Shown: positions 4,942 to 34,360 of the stretch, in pieces
Numbering within the stretch: position 1 is the stretch's first letter
How the letters are laid out: every line of letters begins with the position of its first letter
From: Acinetobacter lwoffii
GTDB taxonomy: Bacteria; Pseudomonadota; Gammaproteobacteria; Pseudomonadales; Moraxellaceae
Assembly: GCA_013530545.1 (NCBI GenBank)
Contig: SPVA01000022.1
Location: forward strand, 1 to 64,000
Direction: 5' to 3'
Length of the DNA: 64,000 bases
Program-made: the position numbers and the translations under genes
The notes under the pieces: model-generated
What the model saw: only the letters and a program-made list of their open reading frames with translations
Told to the model about the DNA's origin: nothing
The model's database searches: none

Positions 4942-5745
4942 TTGATCGATCTATTTAAATCAGGATTTGAATTTACTTATAAGGCAGCTTCGGCTGCCTT
5001 ATTTGGGATTTTACTCCTGCTGGCTTTTGCGCTGACTGCTTCTATGGGCAGCGATCTCTTTTTCGGTTTTTACCGGTATGACTATCTGCTGTTTTTTGCC
5101 TTGTTGATTCAGGTGGTATTACTTTATACAAAACTAGAATCCTGGGCTGAAGCCAAAGTGATTGCGCTATTTCATCTCATGGCCATGGTGATGGAAATCT
5201 TCCTGACCCATCCGGCAATTGCTTCCTGGCATTACCCACAACCCGCAGTATTTAAAATCCTGACCGTACCTTTATTTGCTGGCTTTATGTATTCGGCAGT
5301 CGGCAGCTTTTTTGCACGTTCTTTACGTCTATATCAGGTTTCATTTGAAAAATTGCCGCGTTTCAGCCATATGCTGGCTTTGGCAGTCTTGTCTTATATC
5401 AACTTTATGAGCAAGTTTTTTATTCCCGACTATCGTTTGATTCTATTTGTCTGGAGCGTACTGATGTTCTGGAAAACTAAAATCCGCTTTCAGTTGAATC
5501 AGCATGCTTTTCAGTTGCCGATGTTACCCGTACTGCTGATTCTGGCGTTTATTATCTGGATTGCCGAGAATATCAGTACCTTTTACCAAATCTGGCTCTA
5601 TCCAAGCCAGATTGAGCAATGGCATATGGTGGGATGGGGCAAACTGGGCTCCTGGTATTTGTTGTTATTGCTGAGTCTGGTGTTGGTGCTGAAAATTTTG
5701 GGACAGCGTAATTCACAAGGCGATTGGGCGCTCAAAGAACAGTAA
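4942..5745 (+). CDS. DUF817 family inner-membrane protein
   Basis: A 267-residue, strongly hydrophobic protein with about seven to eight predicted membrane segments, matching the DUF817 (YoaT-like) family of unknown function. Conserved-looking polar patches include AIASWHYP near residue 90 and FYQIWLYPSQ near 213. Translation appears to begin at TTG, preceded by AGGATG at a suitable distance; no in-frame ATG lies near the N-terminus. It starts 10 bases after hemE and probably shares its transcript, but a role in haem metabolism is not shown by the sequence. Confidence 0.82.
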   Translation: MIDLFKSGFEFTYKAASAALFGILLLLAFALTASMGSDLFFGFYRYDYLLFFALLIQVVLLYTKLESWAEAKVIALFHLMAMVMEIFLTHPAIASWHYPQPAVFKILTVPLFAGFMYSAVGSFFARSLRLYQVSFEKLPRFSHMLALAVLSYINFMSKFFIPDYRLILFVWSVLMFWKTKIRFQLNQHAFQLPMLPVLLILAFIIWIAENISTFYQIWLYPSQIEQWHMVGWGKLGSWYLLLLLSLVLVLKILGQRNSQGDWALKEQ

Positions 5746-30516: not shown

Positions 30517-30918
30517 ATGACAAGTTACTCATTGGCTGAATACCACAAGATGTTAGGAATCGAAAAACCGAAAAAGGGGCGCAGGCGTCCCACGGTAAAA
30601 ACAGCACGTGAAAGTGTGGGTGAATCCATTTTAGCCATGCAATTACGTGCGGTGAAAATTCAGTTTGAGCAAGAATTTAGATTCCATCCAAAACGTAAAT
30701 GGAAAGCTGATTTTCACCTGATAGGCAAAAGAATATTGATTGAAGTTGAAGGCGGTATATGGAGTGGTGGACGTCATACGAGGGGCAAGGGGTATATCGG
30801 CGACATGGAAAAATATAACTCAGCAACGATGATGGGTTTTCAAGTAATACGGTTTAGTACAGATCAAGTGAAGTCAGGTCACGCGATCCAGCAAATAGAG
30901 AAGATGGTAGGGGAATAG
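30517..30918 (+). CDS. small PD-(D/E)XK-type endonuclease
   Basis: A 133-residue protein. A basic N-terminus (KPKKGRRRPTVK) leads into a nuclease core: FRFHPKRKWKADFHLIGKRI, with Asp in ADFHL, then LIEVEGGIWSGGRHTRG with the Glu-x-Glu pair, and later MGFQVIRFSTDQV. This layout matches the VRR-NUC/DUF559-like small nucleases of phage ninB/rusA regions, which resolve recombination intermediates. It sits before the Q gene, where lambdoid phages encode resolvases. A paralogue is at 33920. Confidence 0.75.
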   Translation: MTSYSLAEYHKMLGIEKPKKGRRRPTVKTARESVGESILAMQLRAVKIQFEQEFRFHPKRKWKADFHLIGKRILIEVEGGIWSGGRHTRGKGYIGDMEKYNSATMMGFQVIRFSTDQVKSGHAIQQIEKMVGE

Positions 30919-30920
30919 GG

Positions 30921-31418
30921 ATGAATGCGATGGTTAAGGTTCAAAATATTATGCAGGCGGTTGATTGGGGTAAATACTCACTAGAGGAATGGCTTTATCA
31001 ATTTGGGGCTTGGATGAATAGCGTGGCTGGGACATGTGGCAAAAGCATTAACCCTATTGCTGTTGCTATGGATGAAGCGATTGTAAAGCAGCGCAAGTTT
31101 AAGTTGGGCGTGAGAAAGACCCGTCAAGTTATTGCTGATTCTATGTTGGTTGAGGATAAGCCAAGGCTGACACGTACAAACATTGTATGCCAGATTGATG
31201 ATAATGAGGCGCGAGCAGTGCAGCGTTTAATTCTGGATATGCAGGGTCAAAGTGAAATTATGGATGAATGGATGGATGCGATTATCTGCCGGTATTTTTA
31301 TGGGAATTCGTGGTCGCAGATGGTTACACCAGAGCGATCTAGGTATGGGGCAGAGCAAGATGTAAAGTGTGGATTGGCTGCACTGCATTGCCGATATAAA
31401 TTTATTGAATATAAGTGA
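30921..31418 (+). CDS. antitermination protein Q-like
   Basis: A 165-residue protein matching the phage antiterminator Q family: WGKYSLEEWLYQFGAWMN near residues 16-33, then a basic middle, and a C-terminal sigma-like helix-turn-helix region (AIICRYFYGNSWSQMV...). Q binds RNA polymerase at the late promoter and lets it pass terminators. It is the last early gene. A promoter and short terminator follow within 120 bases, as for lambda Q. Confidence 0.82.
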   Translation: MNAMVKVQNIMQAVDWGKYSLEEWLYQFGAWMNSVAGTCGKSINPIAVAMDEAIVKQRKFKLGVRKTRQVIADSMLVEDKPRLTRTNIVCQIDDNEARAVQRLILDMQGQSEIMDEWMDAIICRYFYGNSWSQMVTPERSRYGAEQDVKCGLAALHCRYKFIEYK

Positions 31419-31428
31419 TTAGAACTTC

Positions 31429-31468
31429 TTGACCTTCCGGAAAGCATTTGTTAAATTCATGGTATAGT
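31429..31468 (+). promoter_or_regulatory. candidate late promoter (PR'-like)
   Basis: TTGACC (31429-31434) and TAAATT (31452-31457) are 17 bases apart. An alternative extended -10, TGG-TATAGT, ends at 31468. Either lies just beyond the Q stop codon and 40-75 bases before a terminator, the layout of lambda PR'-tR'. Confidence 0.6.
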
Positions 31469-31504
31469 GGCGCGAAGTGTAAGTAAGTCGCACTACTGAT
31501 AGAA

Positions 31505-31530
31505 GGCTCATCGAAAGGTGGGCTTTTTTG
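31505..31530 (+). terminator. early late-operon terminator (tR'-like)
   Basis: GGCTCATC (31505-31512) and GGTGGGCT (31517-31524) pair over 8 positions with G-U pairs around a GAAA tetraloop, followed by six T. It would cap a short RNA made without Q. Confidence 0.8.
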
Positions 31531-31589
31531 ACATTATTTATTCATAAAATTAAGTGATAATGCCTTTTTGTTTTTGAGCTCTAATTGAA

Positions 31590-31694
31590 ATGGCGATTTT
31601 AACTGTTAAAAAACTAGAAGATACTCTCGGTAAATTAGTGGCTGAAGGCAAAAAGCCTGAAAAGATTTTATTAGGCTATAAAGTGGCGAGCTAA
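31590..31694 (+). CDS. tiny ORF, hypothetical
   Basis: A 34-residue reading frame (MAILTVKKLEDTLGKLVAEG...). Its stop overlaps the next start codon as ATGA-type coupling, which favours both being translated. Low complexity and small size limit certainty. Confidence 0.4.
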   Translation: MAILTVKKLEDTLGKLVAEGKKPEKILLGYKVAS

Positions 31695-31822
31695 TGAATG
31701 ATCGTAGCTTTTTTGAGGAAGTGGCTGGCTCGGCAATGGATCCAAACAAACGAAAATATAAAAATATTAAAATTAAGGTCACTCAAGACGAATATCAGTT
31801 TGAAGTGAAATGTCAAAAATAG
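31694..31822 (+). CDS. tiny ORF, hypothetical
   Basis: A 42-residue frame (MNDRSFFEEVAGSAMDPNKR...) with a basic C-terminus (KRKYKNIKIKV). It overlaps the previous tiny ORF and is followed 18 bases later by a terminator. Unknown function. Confidence 0.4.
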   Translation: MNDRSFFEEVAGSAMDPNKRKYKNIKIKVTQDEYQFEVKCQK

Positions 31823-31840
31823 GTTTAAGCATCAAGGAAA

Positions 31841-31865
31841 GCTCGCCAAATGGTGGGCTTTTTTA
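31841..31865 (+). terminator. second terminator in the late leader
   Basis: GCTCGCC (31841-31847) pairs with GGTGGGC (31852-31858), partly through G-U pairs, followed by TTTTTT. Confidence 0.8.
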
Positions 31866-31890
31866 TTGTCTGTAAAAAGGCAACCCATTC

Positions 31891-32060
31891 CTGCTGGAGT
31901 GCTGACCAGTGGAACATGCCATCGAGTAAACTTCCTTCGGGAATCTAGACTAGGGAGTAGCGTCCCGACCTAAAGAGGATTGAAAGCAAGTAAAGCAGAC
32001 CGTGCATGTTAGGTGTGTGTGATTGTGAGTAGCGTTTGGCCCTGCGAAAAGGGCTTTTTT
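31891..32060 (+). ncRNA. candidate structured non-coding RNA with its own terminator
   Basis: No ORF fits this stretch, but the RNA would fold strongly. A 7-bp hairpin pairs CUGCUGG (31891-31897) with CCAGUGG (31906-31912). Directly after it, AACAUGC (31913-31919) pairs perfectly with GCAUGUU (32004-32010), 85 bases away. Inside this long-range stem are UUCC-UUCG-GGAA (31932-31943), a very stable cUUCGg tetraloop, and GGGA/UCCC (31953-31966). An intrinsic terminator (GCCCU/AGGGC plus six U) ends it at 32060. I know no named family that matches. Confidence 0.55.
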
Positions 32061-32248
32061 ATTGCCTTGAGAAATACTAGTGTAATCATACCAAATTAAA
32101 ATGCTTGATTAACCAGGAATGAATCTTGCTTAGTTCGACAAAGTTAATGACATTATTTCAGCAATGAATATTATAAATTTATGTTTTATAAGTAAAAATA
32201 ACTGACATTTCTTGCGACATGATTGCTTGATTGTCCAGGAGTAAAATC

Positions 32249-32362
32249 ATGCTTAGATTACTGATGTGCTTATTCGGCCTACATGGTGCGACTGAAATCG
32301 ATTACACGATTGATGATGAAGAAATCAAAGTGTGTCGGGATTGTTTGAAAGAAGTTAAATAA
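32249..32362 (+). CDS. small zinc-ribbon-like protein (DUF1660-like)
   Basis: A 37-residue protein, MLRLLMCLFGLHGATEID... to CRDCLKEVK. The order Cys-x3-4-His near the start and Cys-x2-Cys near the end is that of DUF1660-type mini zinc ribbons common in phages. AGGAG stands seven bases before the ATG. Too small for firm assignment. Confidence 0.55.
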   Translation: MLRLLMCLFGLHGATEIDYTIDDEEIKVCRDCLKEVK

Positions 32363-32456
32363 CAATCACTCAAGCAAAGAGCTGTTTCATAAAGCTGCAA
32401 TATTTAAGCAATATAGTTGCTCTGCAAAAGAAGAAAGACGTTGTGATGCAAGTCAA
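32363..32456 (+). other. untranslated stretch ahead of paired terminators
   Basis: No supported gene. The sequence contains AGC/GCT-rich imperfect repeats around CAATAT that could fold, leading into the terminators at 32457 and 32529. Confidence 0.3.
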
Positions 32457-32493
32457 GCCCGTTTAATTGGAGAGAGTTAAGCGGGCTTTTTTA
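32457..32493 (+). terminator. terminator in the late leader
   Basis: Ten base pairs join GCCCGTTTAA (32457-32466) with TTAAGCGGGC (32477-32486), followed by TTTTTT. Confidence 0.85.
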
Positions 32494-32528
32494 TTTCAAA
32501 ATCGCCGGACGTATTACGGCAAACAAAG

Positions 32529-32565
32529 CCCCTCGCATTCTAGATGTTGAGGGGTTTTCCTTTTT
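32529..32565 (+). terminator. terminator upstream of hicAB
   Basis: CCCCTC (32529-32534) and GAGGGG (32549-32554) close a hairpin followed by TTTTCCTTTTT. Confidence 0.75.
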
Positions 32566-32644
32566 ATTAAAATATTTTGTTACATTAAATGAACGCCTAG
32601 CTTAGTATTTGTTATTCATTAATTTTATTTTTTTTAATGTTAAT

Positions 32645-32667
32645 ATGTTATTATAAAACAATAACAT
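32645..32667. promoter_or_regulatory. inverted repeat upstream of hicAB, candidate HicB operator
   Basis: Perfect 8-base arms ATGTTATT and AATAACAT are separated by seven bases, about 100 bases before hicA. HicB proteins with a ribbon-helix-helix end bind such repeats to control their own operon. Confidence 0.5.
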
Positions 32668-32782
32668 AGTAAAATATTGCTATTGAGAGTTAGTGCTTTA
32701 GTAGTCATCATGAACTAAATACGAAATAGTTATTTAGAGAATTTTTATCATGAAACCACCCAAAAGTGTGTATAGTTACACA

Positions 32783-32971
32783 ATGAACAGCAAAGATATT
32801 ATTAAGCGTCTAGAGCAGGAAGGCTGGTATAAGGTTGGCGGTAAGGGCGACCATGAAAAGTACAAGCATCCTGAAAAGTCCGGGCATGTTGTGGTGCCAC
32901 ATCCACGTAAAGATATGCCGATAGGAACTCTACGCAATATATATAAACAGGCTGGTTGGGAATGGAGGTAA
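32783..32971 (+). CDS. hicA: HicA toxin, mRNA interferase
   Basis: A 62-residue protein from the usual start MNSKDIIKRLEQEGWYKVGG; an ATG at 32750 would add 11 residues. It has the double-stranded RNA-binding-like HicA fold with the catalytic His in KGDHEKYKHP and the final GTLRNIYKQAGW. HicA cuts mRNA when HicB is lost. It is followed by hicB with its stop next to the hicB ribosome site. Here it is a prophage-borne addiction or defence module. Confidence 0.9.
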   Translation: MNSKDIIKRLEQEGWYKVGGKGDHEKYKHPEKSGHVVVPHPRKDMPIGTLRNIYKQAGWEWR

Positions 32972-32973
32972 AA

Positions 32974-33360
32974 ATGTTATATCCAGTATATGTTCATAAA
33001 GATGAAGATACTGCATACGGTTTAACTTTCCCTGACTTTGAAGGGTGTTTCAGTGCTGCTGATGAAATGCAAGACATCCAGCGCATGGCGCAGGAAGCGG
33101 TTGAAGTTCACTTTGATGGTGAAGATATTCCGTTACCTACACCGTCAAGCCCGGAACAATGGTTAAGTGATGAGAGATTTGAAGGTGGTTTTTGGTTGTT
33201 AGTTGATATTGATACAGCAAAGGTAAATACCAAGTCTGTTCGTATTAATATCAGCATGCCAGAAGCTTTAGTGAAACGTATTGATGCTATGGCTAAAAAA
33301 CAACATTTAAGCCGTTCGGCATTTTTAGCCAAAAGCGCGGAAATGGCATTGCATCAGTAA
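32974..33360 (+). CDS. hicB: HicB antitoxin
   Basis: A 128-residue antitoxin. The N-terminal HicB fold (MLYPVYVHKDEDTAYGLTFP then DFEGCFSAADE) neutralises HicA. The C-terminal ribbon-helix-helix (RINISMPEALVKRIDAMAKK then RSAFLAKSAE) binds DNA for autoregulation. The start ATG 32974 has GGAGG seven bases upstream, lying inside the hicA end. Confidence 0.92.
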   Translation: MLYPVYVHKDEDTAYGLTFPDFEGCFSAADEMQDIQRMAQEAVEVHFDGEDIPLPTPSSPEQWLSDERFEGGFWLLVDIDTAKVNTKSVRINISMPEALVKRIDAMAKKQHLSRSAFLAKSAEMALHQ

Positions 33361-33905: not shown

Positions 33906-33919
33906 GTTGGGTGCAGATC

Positions 33920-34360
33920 ATGGATCCAAAACACTATAAAAAATTAACCGATAAGGGTCTAATCAAAAATAAACCTCGCAATAGACCACTACCTAAAGCC
34001 AGTGAGAAATACTTAGAAGCTTTCGATCGACTAAAAGAAATCCTTGATCGGATGGAAATCAAATATGAAGAATACTTCCATTTTAAAACCACTAAACACT
34101 GGCGCTTTGATTTACACCTGGTTGGATATCTCACATTGATTGAAATAGCTGGTGGTCCTTGGTCTGGTGGCCGTAAAGGTAAACTGGCTACTAAAGCCTG
34201 GAGCATAGATCGTTATGATCATGCTGAAGAAATGGGATATCGGTATATACGCTTCGAAGTCTCAGATATCTCATCATCCAATAGGGCCGTACAGTGGCTT
34301 AGAAATTTAAAGGCATCACATGGAACAGTTCAGACCATTCCCACCGACGGATCTGATTGA
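33920..34360 (+). CDS. second small PD-(D/E)XK-like endonuclease, altered active site
   Basis: A protein of about 146 residues related to the one at 30517. The shared core is KHWRFDLHLVGYLTLIEIAG followed by GPWSGGRKGK, then GYRYIRFEVSDI. The first Asp (FDLHL) and Glu (LIEI) are kept, but the second acidic residue of the EVEGG motif is Ala here. It may be less active or use another residue. The start could be ATG 33920 or GTG 33911. Its end overlaps the metallopeptidase gene by 41 bases. It sits just before the terminase genes and may aid DNA packaging. Confidence 0.7.
   Translation: MDPKHYKKLTDKGLIKNKPRNRPLPKASEKYLEAFDRLKEILDRMEIKYEEYFHFKTTKHWRFDLHLVGYLTLIEIAGGPWSGGRKGKLATKAWSIDRYDHAEEMGYRYIRFEVSDISSSNRAVQWLRNLKASHGTVQTIPTDGSD

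Follow-up and report, generated by a model that had tools for sequence, protein, structure and literature searches.

A Pseudomonadales-1 RNA with a conserved long-range pseudoknot occupies an optional late-leader cassette of Acinetobacter prophages

The window, i.e. the whole stretch of DNA analyzed here, comprises positions 1-64,000 (64,000 nt) of Acinetobacter lwoffii contig SPVA01000022.1, forward strand. It carries a gene for a Q-like late antiterminator, followed on the same strand by a likely late promoter, a tR'-like terminator, a small ORF, a second terminator and an RNA element (Table 1). We take the combination of a Q-like gene, a promoter and a terminator to be the layout of lambda pR'/tR', and the -10-like hexamer behind the promoter presumably recalls the Q-type pause site of lambda. 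The promoter scan performed at chance level (7 found, 6.8 expected), and the case for pR' therefore rests on the same layout in relatives. The RNA starts ~360 nt past tR' in the window and directly behind a terminator in several relatives. It is followed by genes for HicAB, a putative metallopeptidase, a DUF2280 protein and the large terminase, the DUF2280 protein sitting where the small terminase subunit would be expected. The HicA-HicB type toxin-antitoxin pair lies at 32750-33360. Two phrog_503 genes flank the late-leader region, one before Q (30517-30918, also matching DUF559) and one before the metallopeptidase gene (33911-34360).

Table 1. Features of the late-leader region in the window, all given in window coordinates
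Feature	Position	Strand	Basis and remarks
Q-like late antiterminator gene	30921..31418	+	phrog_79, E 9e-33
Likely late promoter pR' (TTGACC-17-TAAATT)	31429..31457	+	Promoter scan; same layout in relatives
-10-like TATAGT after pR'	31463-31468	+	As at Q-type pause sites
tR'-like terminator, imperfect stem with bulge	31503..31529	+	Sequence; same element in relatives; missed by terminator scan
Small ORF between tR' and RNA	31694..31822	+	phrog_3631
Second terminator, directly upstream of cassette	31835..31864	+	Terminator scan
14-nt direct repeat GGGCTTTTTTATTG, cassette left edge	31855..31868	+	Overlap of two alignments to L117
Pseudomonadales-1 RNA core (RF03046)	31890..32055	+	cmscan; transcript likely reaches T-run ending 32060
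P1 hairpin, 7 bp	31891..31912	+	Sequence; compensated in groups A and C
PK1 5' strand AACATGC	31913..31919	+	Sequence and comparison; adjoins P1
cUUCGg hairpin, optional	31932..31943	+	Sequence; found in 7/66 distinct copies
P2 hairpin GGGA/UCCC	31953..31966	+	Sequence; paired in Rfam model
GAAA, conserved, 5' side of P3 base	31982..31985	+	GAAA/GAAC in 65/66 copies, counted inside a 30-nt stretch at that place
P3, long irregular hairpin, loop holding PK1 3' strand	31986..32026	+	Rfam model
PK1 3' strand GCATGTT	32004..32010	+	Sequence and comparison; in apical loop of P3
GAGUAGC, conserved	32027..32033	+	AGTA there in 64/66 copies
3' hairpin, in window an intrinsic terminator	32038..32060	+	Terminator scan, sequence; T-run to 32060
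14-nt direct repeat GGGCTTTTTTATTG, cassette right edge	32051..32064	+	Overlap of two alignments to L117

Comparison with Rfam gave a match to RF03046 (Pseudomonadales-1) of 108.8 bits (gathering cut-off 68), which runs end to end through the model (1-164 of 164, E 1.2e-24). Across the whole window no other Rfam family exceeded its cut-off, and three other matches (E up to 1, within 31300-32800) were far below their own cut-offs. No known riboswitch or other curated RNA class reached its gathering score in the window, and ARAGORN found 0 tRNA or tmRNA genes there; a tRNA-like RNA was set aside. The first-pass annotation had described an RNA that matches no tRNA, tmRNA or riboswitch known. The absence of tRNA and tmRNA holds, but the full-length RF03046 match above cut-off makes it wrong to say that nothing known is matched. 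All elements that it had listed, namely P1, the long-range stem, the cUUCGg hairpin, the GGGA/UCCC hairpin and the terminator, are present at the places it gave, and its placement of the RNA downstream of Q in the late leader was borne out. The founding description of Pseudomonadales-1 is reportedly that of Weinberg and others from 2017. No function was found for the family, whose name was absent from the literature searched. In the available parts of two papers on A. baumannii sRNAs, the word "pseudomonadales" was used in the taxon sense only (once in PMC11472050, and in PMC12802169).

Alignment to the RF03046 model demonstrated that the window copy has P1, P2, P3 and the 3' hairpin in common with the family, as well as the conserved GAAAG and GAGUAGC that flank P3. 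Beyond the model, the present analysis adds two further pairings (PK1 and PK2), a 5' pseudoknot in one group of copies, and the late-leader cassette setting. P1 is formed by 31891-31897 and 31906-31912, and two of its 7 bp are G-U. PK1 consists of 7 Watson-Crick bp in the window, between strands that are ~85 nt apart in the same RNA; the 5' strand follows P1, and the 3' strand lies in the apical loop of P3, ~25 nt before GAGUAGC. At the base of P3, AGUA stands opposite GAA, which suggests a bulged-G (loop-E) motif, a known RNA motif assigned here from the letters. In group C copies (see below) and others, the loop of the 3' hairpin pairs back to the GAGUAGC flank (PK2); several PK2 sequence types occur among the copies, and in the window copy PK2 is weak or hard to make out. 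The minimum free energy of the window copy was no better than that of dinucleotide shuffles (z 0.42; 130/200 shuffles at least as good), and the case for structure therefore rests on comparison rather than stability. The earlier wording "strongly structured" is thus justified by the comparison of copies but not by the stability of the single sequence.

To compare the family across genomes, 75 copies were assembled, comprising 74 fetched copies and the window. Six were dropped from the structural and terminator counts: one cut by a contig end (L084), one of 32.9 bits that was not phage-like (L101), and four that by eye were degenerate or missing part of the 5' half (L096, L097, L098 and L099). 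This left 69 copies, and 66 after removal of three identical ones; the low-scoring L100, L102, L103 and L104 were retained. The 66 distinct copies split into group A (21), group B (26, including the window) and group C (19, reduced to 18 in the alignment by leaving out L104).

Within the genus, the family was found in 50 of 175 genomes (47 above cut-off), with 72 matches of which six scored below the RF03046 cut-off. A scan at family level gave matches in 52 of 348 genomes, and the three outside the genus scored below cut-off. Of 390 genomes drawn evenly from the order, the window's own genome alone matched, and 0 of 14 control genomes did; these many-genome scans used stricter filters, by which weak matches may be lost. 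A 31-base segment of the most frequent 3' end recurred without mismatch in six named records, all of them Acinetobacter. Pattern scans of IMG/VR returned 78, 4 and 67 stretches, on partly overlapping contigs. A nucleotide search of a phage collection with one copy each of groups A, B (the window) and C gave no match. In a plasmid collection the window copy likewise gave no match, and the group C query gave one (80.3% identity, 72% of the query covered). The matching plasmid is from Acinetobacter seifertii; the stretch (5207-5430) has no listed gene, lies on the same strand as the surrounding genes, and has a terminase small subunit gene among its neighbors.

PK1 is absent from the structure line of the RF03046 model, and its conservation was examined in several ways. 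A helix-score search placed it at the same position in 64 of the 66 copies, with L053 and L087 giving other helices. With fixed columns, 98.6% of the PK1 cells were paired in group A (21 copies), with double changes in three of the seven pairs and single mismatches in two cells (L053 and L100 by the printed rows). In group C (18 copies) 100% were paired, with double changes in two of six pairs. The fixed-column counts were confined to groups A and C, since PK1 is nearly invariant in group B (the same pairing in 21 of 26 copies). The apical stem of P3 is also compensated in groups A and C. For group A, the whole model consisted of P1, PK1 and the P3 apical stem (18 pairs in 21 copies): 97.9% of cells were paired, vs 22.6-39.9% with slid partners, and 8/18 pairs were doubly changed, vs 3.5 in shuffles (0/500 shuffles reaching this number). 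For group C, the model comprised the 5' pseudoknot (PK0), P1, PK1, two P3 helices and PK2 (38 pairs in 18 copies): 94.9% of cells were paired, vs 27.6-41.2% with slid partners, and 22/38 pairs were doubly changed, vs 11.9 in shuffles (again 0/500). These shuffles, like those that follow, ignore the relatedness of the copies. The numbers of further pair types were not clearly above shuffles (group A: 14 vs 12.5, 103/500; group C: 42 vs 36.9, 9/500). In a joint MAFFT alignment of groups A and B (37 sequences) the PK1 strands of the two groups did not line up, and this alignment was excluded from the counts.

Across the groups, 12 different fully complementary 7-mer pairings were identified, in 58 of the 66 copies. 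An earlier tally of 19 PK1 types, with 15/342 full swaps, includes imperfect and shifted pairings, and the perfect-only recount gave the 12 reported here. The 7-mer search also found a match in 699/2878 between-group swaps (24%) and 455/3300 letter shuffles (14%), and since this is a real chance rate, weight was put on the fixed-column counts. A 6-mer search was positive in 63/66 copies vs 1108/3592 swaps. In the helix-score search, the copies' own mean was 17.3 vs 12.5 for swaps, and their own median was reached by 7.9% of swaps and 3.8% of shuffles. Among contigs from IMG/VR and named genomes, 74 of 76 distinct cores show one of the PK1 pairings or a close variant, part of these cores having been found with a pattern that contains the PK1 3' strand; the 6-mer result for viral cores (75/76) is uninformative because that search is so wide. 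Among the 66 distinct copies, PK1 has one mismatch in L053, L068, L070 and L100, six of seven pairs in L068, L070, L081 and L083, and is lost in L087 alone. The first-pass annotation had asked whether homologues break the long-range stem without compensation; the stem survived this comparison, with the single loss in 1/66 copies.

The RF03046 match and the compensatory changes in PK1 and neighboring helices of other copies agree with the first-pass annotation of a structured RNA and go beyond chance. As judged from the compared sequences, the stretch encodes a genuine and conserved structured RNA of the known family Pseudomonadales-1, and the long-range 7-bp stem is a true conserved pseudoknot in which the apical loop of P3 pairs with the 5' strand. 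Taken together, the identity of the RNA and PK1 leave us with very little doubt.

The setting seen in the window recurs among the other copies. In most intact contexts, a Q-like gene precedes the RNA, which is on the late strand, and terminase genes follow. For the Q comparison, 133 Q matches were entered from those listed (fragments and weak rows were omitted, some of them above 55 bits) and set against 71 of the 72 genus copies. Among the matches listed, 45 of the 133 are followed by the RNA on their own strand within 5.5 kb, at a median of 472 nt. Conversely, 26 of the 71 RNA copies have no upstream Q among the matches listed and entered; seven of these loci carry a different protein cluster (48) upstream, and some are contig ends or decayed copies. 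Another protein cluster (37), metallophosphoesterase-like by eye, precedes Q or cluster 48 upstream of the RNA at eight loci (L032, L036, L039, L047, L056, L072, L085 and L098), and in the A. seifertii plasmid the corresponding region is annotated with a metallophosphoesterase.

Terminator-like sites are enriched on both sides of the RNA. Measured from the first T of the T-run, such a site lies within 400 nt upstream in 67/69 copies (199/1252 random positions drawn from the same loci), within 60 nt upstream in 29/69 (40/1252) and within 80 nt downstream in 40/69 (52/1252). In the copies closest to an upstream terminator, the RNA starts 10 nt past the first T of the terminator's T-run. Many group A copies and most group C copies, the window not among them, have a tiny ORF with a ribosome-binding-like site ~60-135 nt upstream of the core (L033, L037, L045, L057, L060, L067, L069, L081 and others). 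The peptides vary (MK*, MPAYA*, MPTF*, MKF*), and what recurs is a start followed by an early stop.

Several relatives lack the RNA. The relative L117 can be aligned to the window to the left and to the right of the cassette and is without 31869-32050 plus one copy of GGGCTTTTTTATTG; this 14-nt overlap of its two alignments is common to both terminator tails. In L315, L336 and L338, tR' is directly followed by other sequence, and in L333 by a terminator like that behind the copies of type i and a tRNA-Arg gene, all four without the RNA. Among the Q matches listed, 88/133 loci have no RNA within 5.5 kb, 57 of these 88 have terminase-region genes downstream, and a promoter and terminator were recognized by a crude pattern in 25 of the 57. 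Since relatives have the slot without the RNA, Q-dependent late transcription probably does not need it, and a required antitermination element was set aside in view of the many Q loci without the RNA. Terminase-region genes were found at 61/69 RNA copies, a count that is partly circular because the protein clusters were drawn partly from RNA loci. The commonest protein cluster found only downstream occurs at 35/75 loci, and no single gene is therefore tied to the RNA. By comparison of these loci, the RNA is an optional, terminator-bounded cassette at the start of the late genes in Acinetobacter prophages.

The slot behind tR' holds tRNA genes in other phages, and tRNA genes are also found behind the RNA. 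A tRNA gene on the same strand lies within 2.5 kb downstream in 19/69 RNA copies; 16 of the 21 downstream tRNAs are tRNA-Arg(tct), and the first tRNA is 6-53 nt after the Rfam 3' end. Examples in which tRNA genes, mostly tRNA-Arg(tct), follow ~50 nt after the RNA and its terminator are L034, L036, L037, L038, L041, L048, L051, L058 and others. Among the Q matches listed, 9/88 RNA-less loci have a downstream tRNA. The excess at RNA copies (Fisher p 0.006 against the 88 listed loci, and p 0.024 against the 57 that are terminase-linked) compares sets measured from different points (the RNA end and the Q end) and is uncorrected for relatedness.

Several known phage RNAs were considered for comparison. 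The lambda 6S or late leader RNA comes from the Q-dependent late promoter region and ends at tR'. The Pseudomonadales-1 RNA would share this source but starts after tR', and a lambda 6S analogue was ruled out by its position, which is not between pR' and tR'. The packaging RNA of phi29 is of similar length and has loop interactions. A packaging RNA of this type was set aside, as the window has no such Rfam match above cut-off and encodes a large terminase with the DUF2280 protein in the place of the small subunit. The nearest in style are GOLLD and ROOL, which the available text of PMC12286853 describes as non-coding prophage RNAs of unknown function that often lie near tRNA islands, ROOL with multiple pseudoknots. 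They resemble the present RNA in being prophage RNAs and in the proximity of tRNA genes, but differ in size: ~165 nt here vs 659 nt for ROOL env-120 and often over 800 nt for GOLLD, as given in the same text (PMC12286853), and neither matched the window above its Rfam cut-off. The Group 1 sRNAs of A. baumannii, which the available text of PMC5320573 presents as phage-derived structured RNAs, are together with C4 of P1/P7 similar in being phage-derived structured RNA in Acinetobacter. Their position is elsewhere, and the window has no Rfam match to C4 above cut-off.

The above observations lead us to propose, tentatively and short of confidence, that the phage makes this accessory RNA late and that the shape of the molecule, not a pairing seed, accounts for its action as a scaffold or decoy. 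Where the RNA begins 10 nt after the start of a T-run there is no room for a promoter of its own, which would imply that Q-dependent read-through from pR' supplies the transcript and that it is therefore made late. The RNA would be transcribed only when Q carries the polymerase beyond tR', thus late in infection, and would then be cut out of the late transcript or kept at its 5' end. The pseudoknots and terminator hairpins may protect it, and it could serve as a scaffold or decoy for a protein or RNP, such as the ribosome, an RNA-decay factor or a defence factor. Action by shape is suggested because the fold and the loop-E-like internal loop are conserved while pairing and loop sequences change with compensation; owing to this compensated drift the copies offer no evident fixed antisense seed, and a long unpaired one is not evident either. 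Weighing against the proposal are the copies with no upstream Q among the matches listed, and the terminator that follows the RNA in more than half of the copies, which has no obvious use if the polymerase is Q-modified and would also suit a cis attenuator.

That attenuator is one form of the alternative we consider possible but less likely, namely a cis-acting leader of the late mRNA, the fold of which would control the 3' terminator in an attenuator- or riboswitch-like manner or stabilize the 5' end of the late transcript. The position of most copies with intact surroundings, close to where the late operon starts and on its strand, would fit, as would the enrichment of terminators within 80 nt behind the RNA, the 3' hairpin that is itself a terminator in the window, and the ribosome site with a tiny ORF before most group C and many group A copies. 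However, terminase-linked Q loci with a promoter and tR' but without the RNA exist, the genes behind the RNA differ among phages, copies with the second kind of 3' end (see below) have no terminator close behind, and a Q-modified polymerase should ignore terminators. A structured RNA that heads an operon with several terminators also recalls put, the antitermination RNA of HK022, which suggests an RNA that modifies its own transcribing polymerase and adds to Q. This is quite unlikely given the majority of listed Q loci without the RNA, most of them with terminase-region genes downstream, and the 45 of 71 copies that already follow a Q match among those listed.

A base-pairing sRNA, or an immunity-type antisense RNA such as C4, with the variable PK1 strands as specificity elements, is unlikely as well. 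It would explain why the loop-to-strand pairing diversifies yet stays complementary, and why one genome (G105) has four copies with at least three PK1 types (L039, L054, L057); antisense RNAs aimed at phage-specific targets could also do without a conserved seed. Against it, both PK1 partners reside in the same RNA, C4 is without a match in the window, and the position is late rather than in an immunity region. The degenerate copies, such as the one without PK1 and the genus matches below cut-off, might indicate a decayed or selfish remnant with no function for the phage, but compensatory changes in groups A and C make this very improbable. We accordingly favor the shape-acting scaffold or decoy ahead of the cis leader, followed by the antisense RNA, added antitermination and no function.

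A more specific form of the shape-acting RNA, which we regard as doubtful, is a late-made host-takeover or counter-defence RNA that would be delivered from the accessory slot behind tR' and, with its pseudoknots, serve as decoy or scaffold. Perhaps such an RNA forms a homo-oligomer with the PK1 pairing between molecules, which is conceivable because covariation cannot separate pairing within one molecule from pairing between copies. If true, the takeover or counter-defence RNA would be a compact addition to the classes of phage RNAs that act by shape. The main addition of this study is the late-leader cassette setting for a family for which no function was found, a setting also seen in IMG/VR contigs and in the A. 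seifertii plasmid with a small-terminase gene. It indicates when the transcript should be sought; the RNA-less relatives are natural controls, and PK1 provides a testable pseudoknot model.

Further sequence patterns were observed at the two ends of the RNA. In group C copies, a small pseudoknot lies ~30 nt upstream of the core, formed by CGU..ACG with a compensated 4-bp stem, and resembles in design the third type of 3' end on other copies. Three kinds of 3' end were distinguished: GGTAGATCAGTTGCCGAGCTGATC; CTATGGACCACAGCATAG...CTGTGGT; and CGTCTAGCCCCGCG..GGGCT. They sit on different cores, which suggests that the 3' ends of copies have been exchanged by modular recombination. In the first kind (GGTAGATCAGTTGCCGAGCTGATC), the loop GCC could pair with an upstream CGGU or a downstream GGC. 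A conserved stretch (GTGAATTAAACGTGATATTTATCAAAAAATTACGAAATAAACTG and similar) is found downstream of L067, L069, L082, L088, L095 and L096, and the copies trailed by it have the second kind of 3' end.
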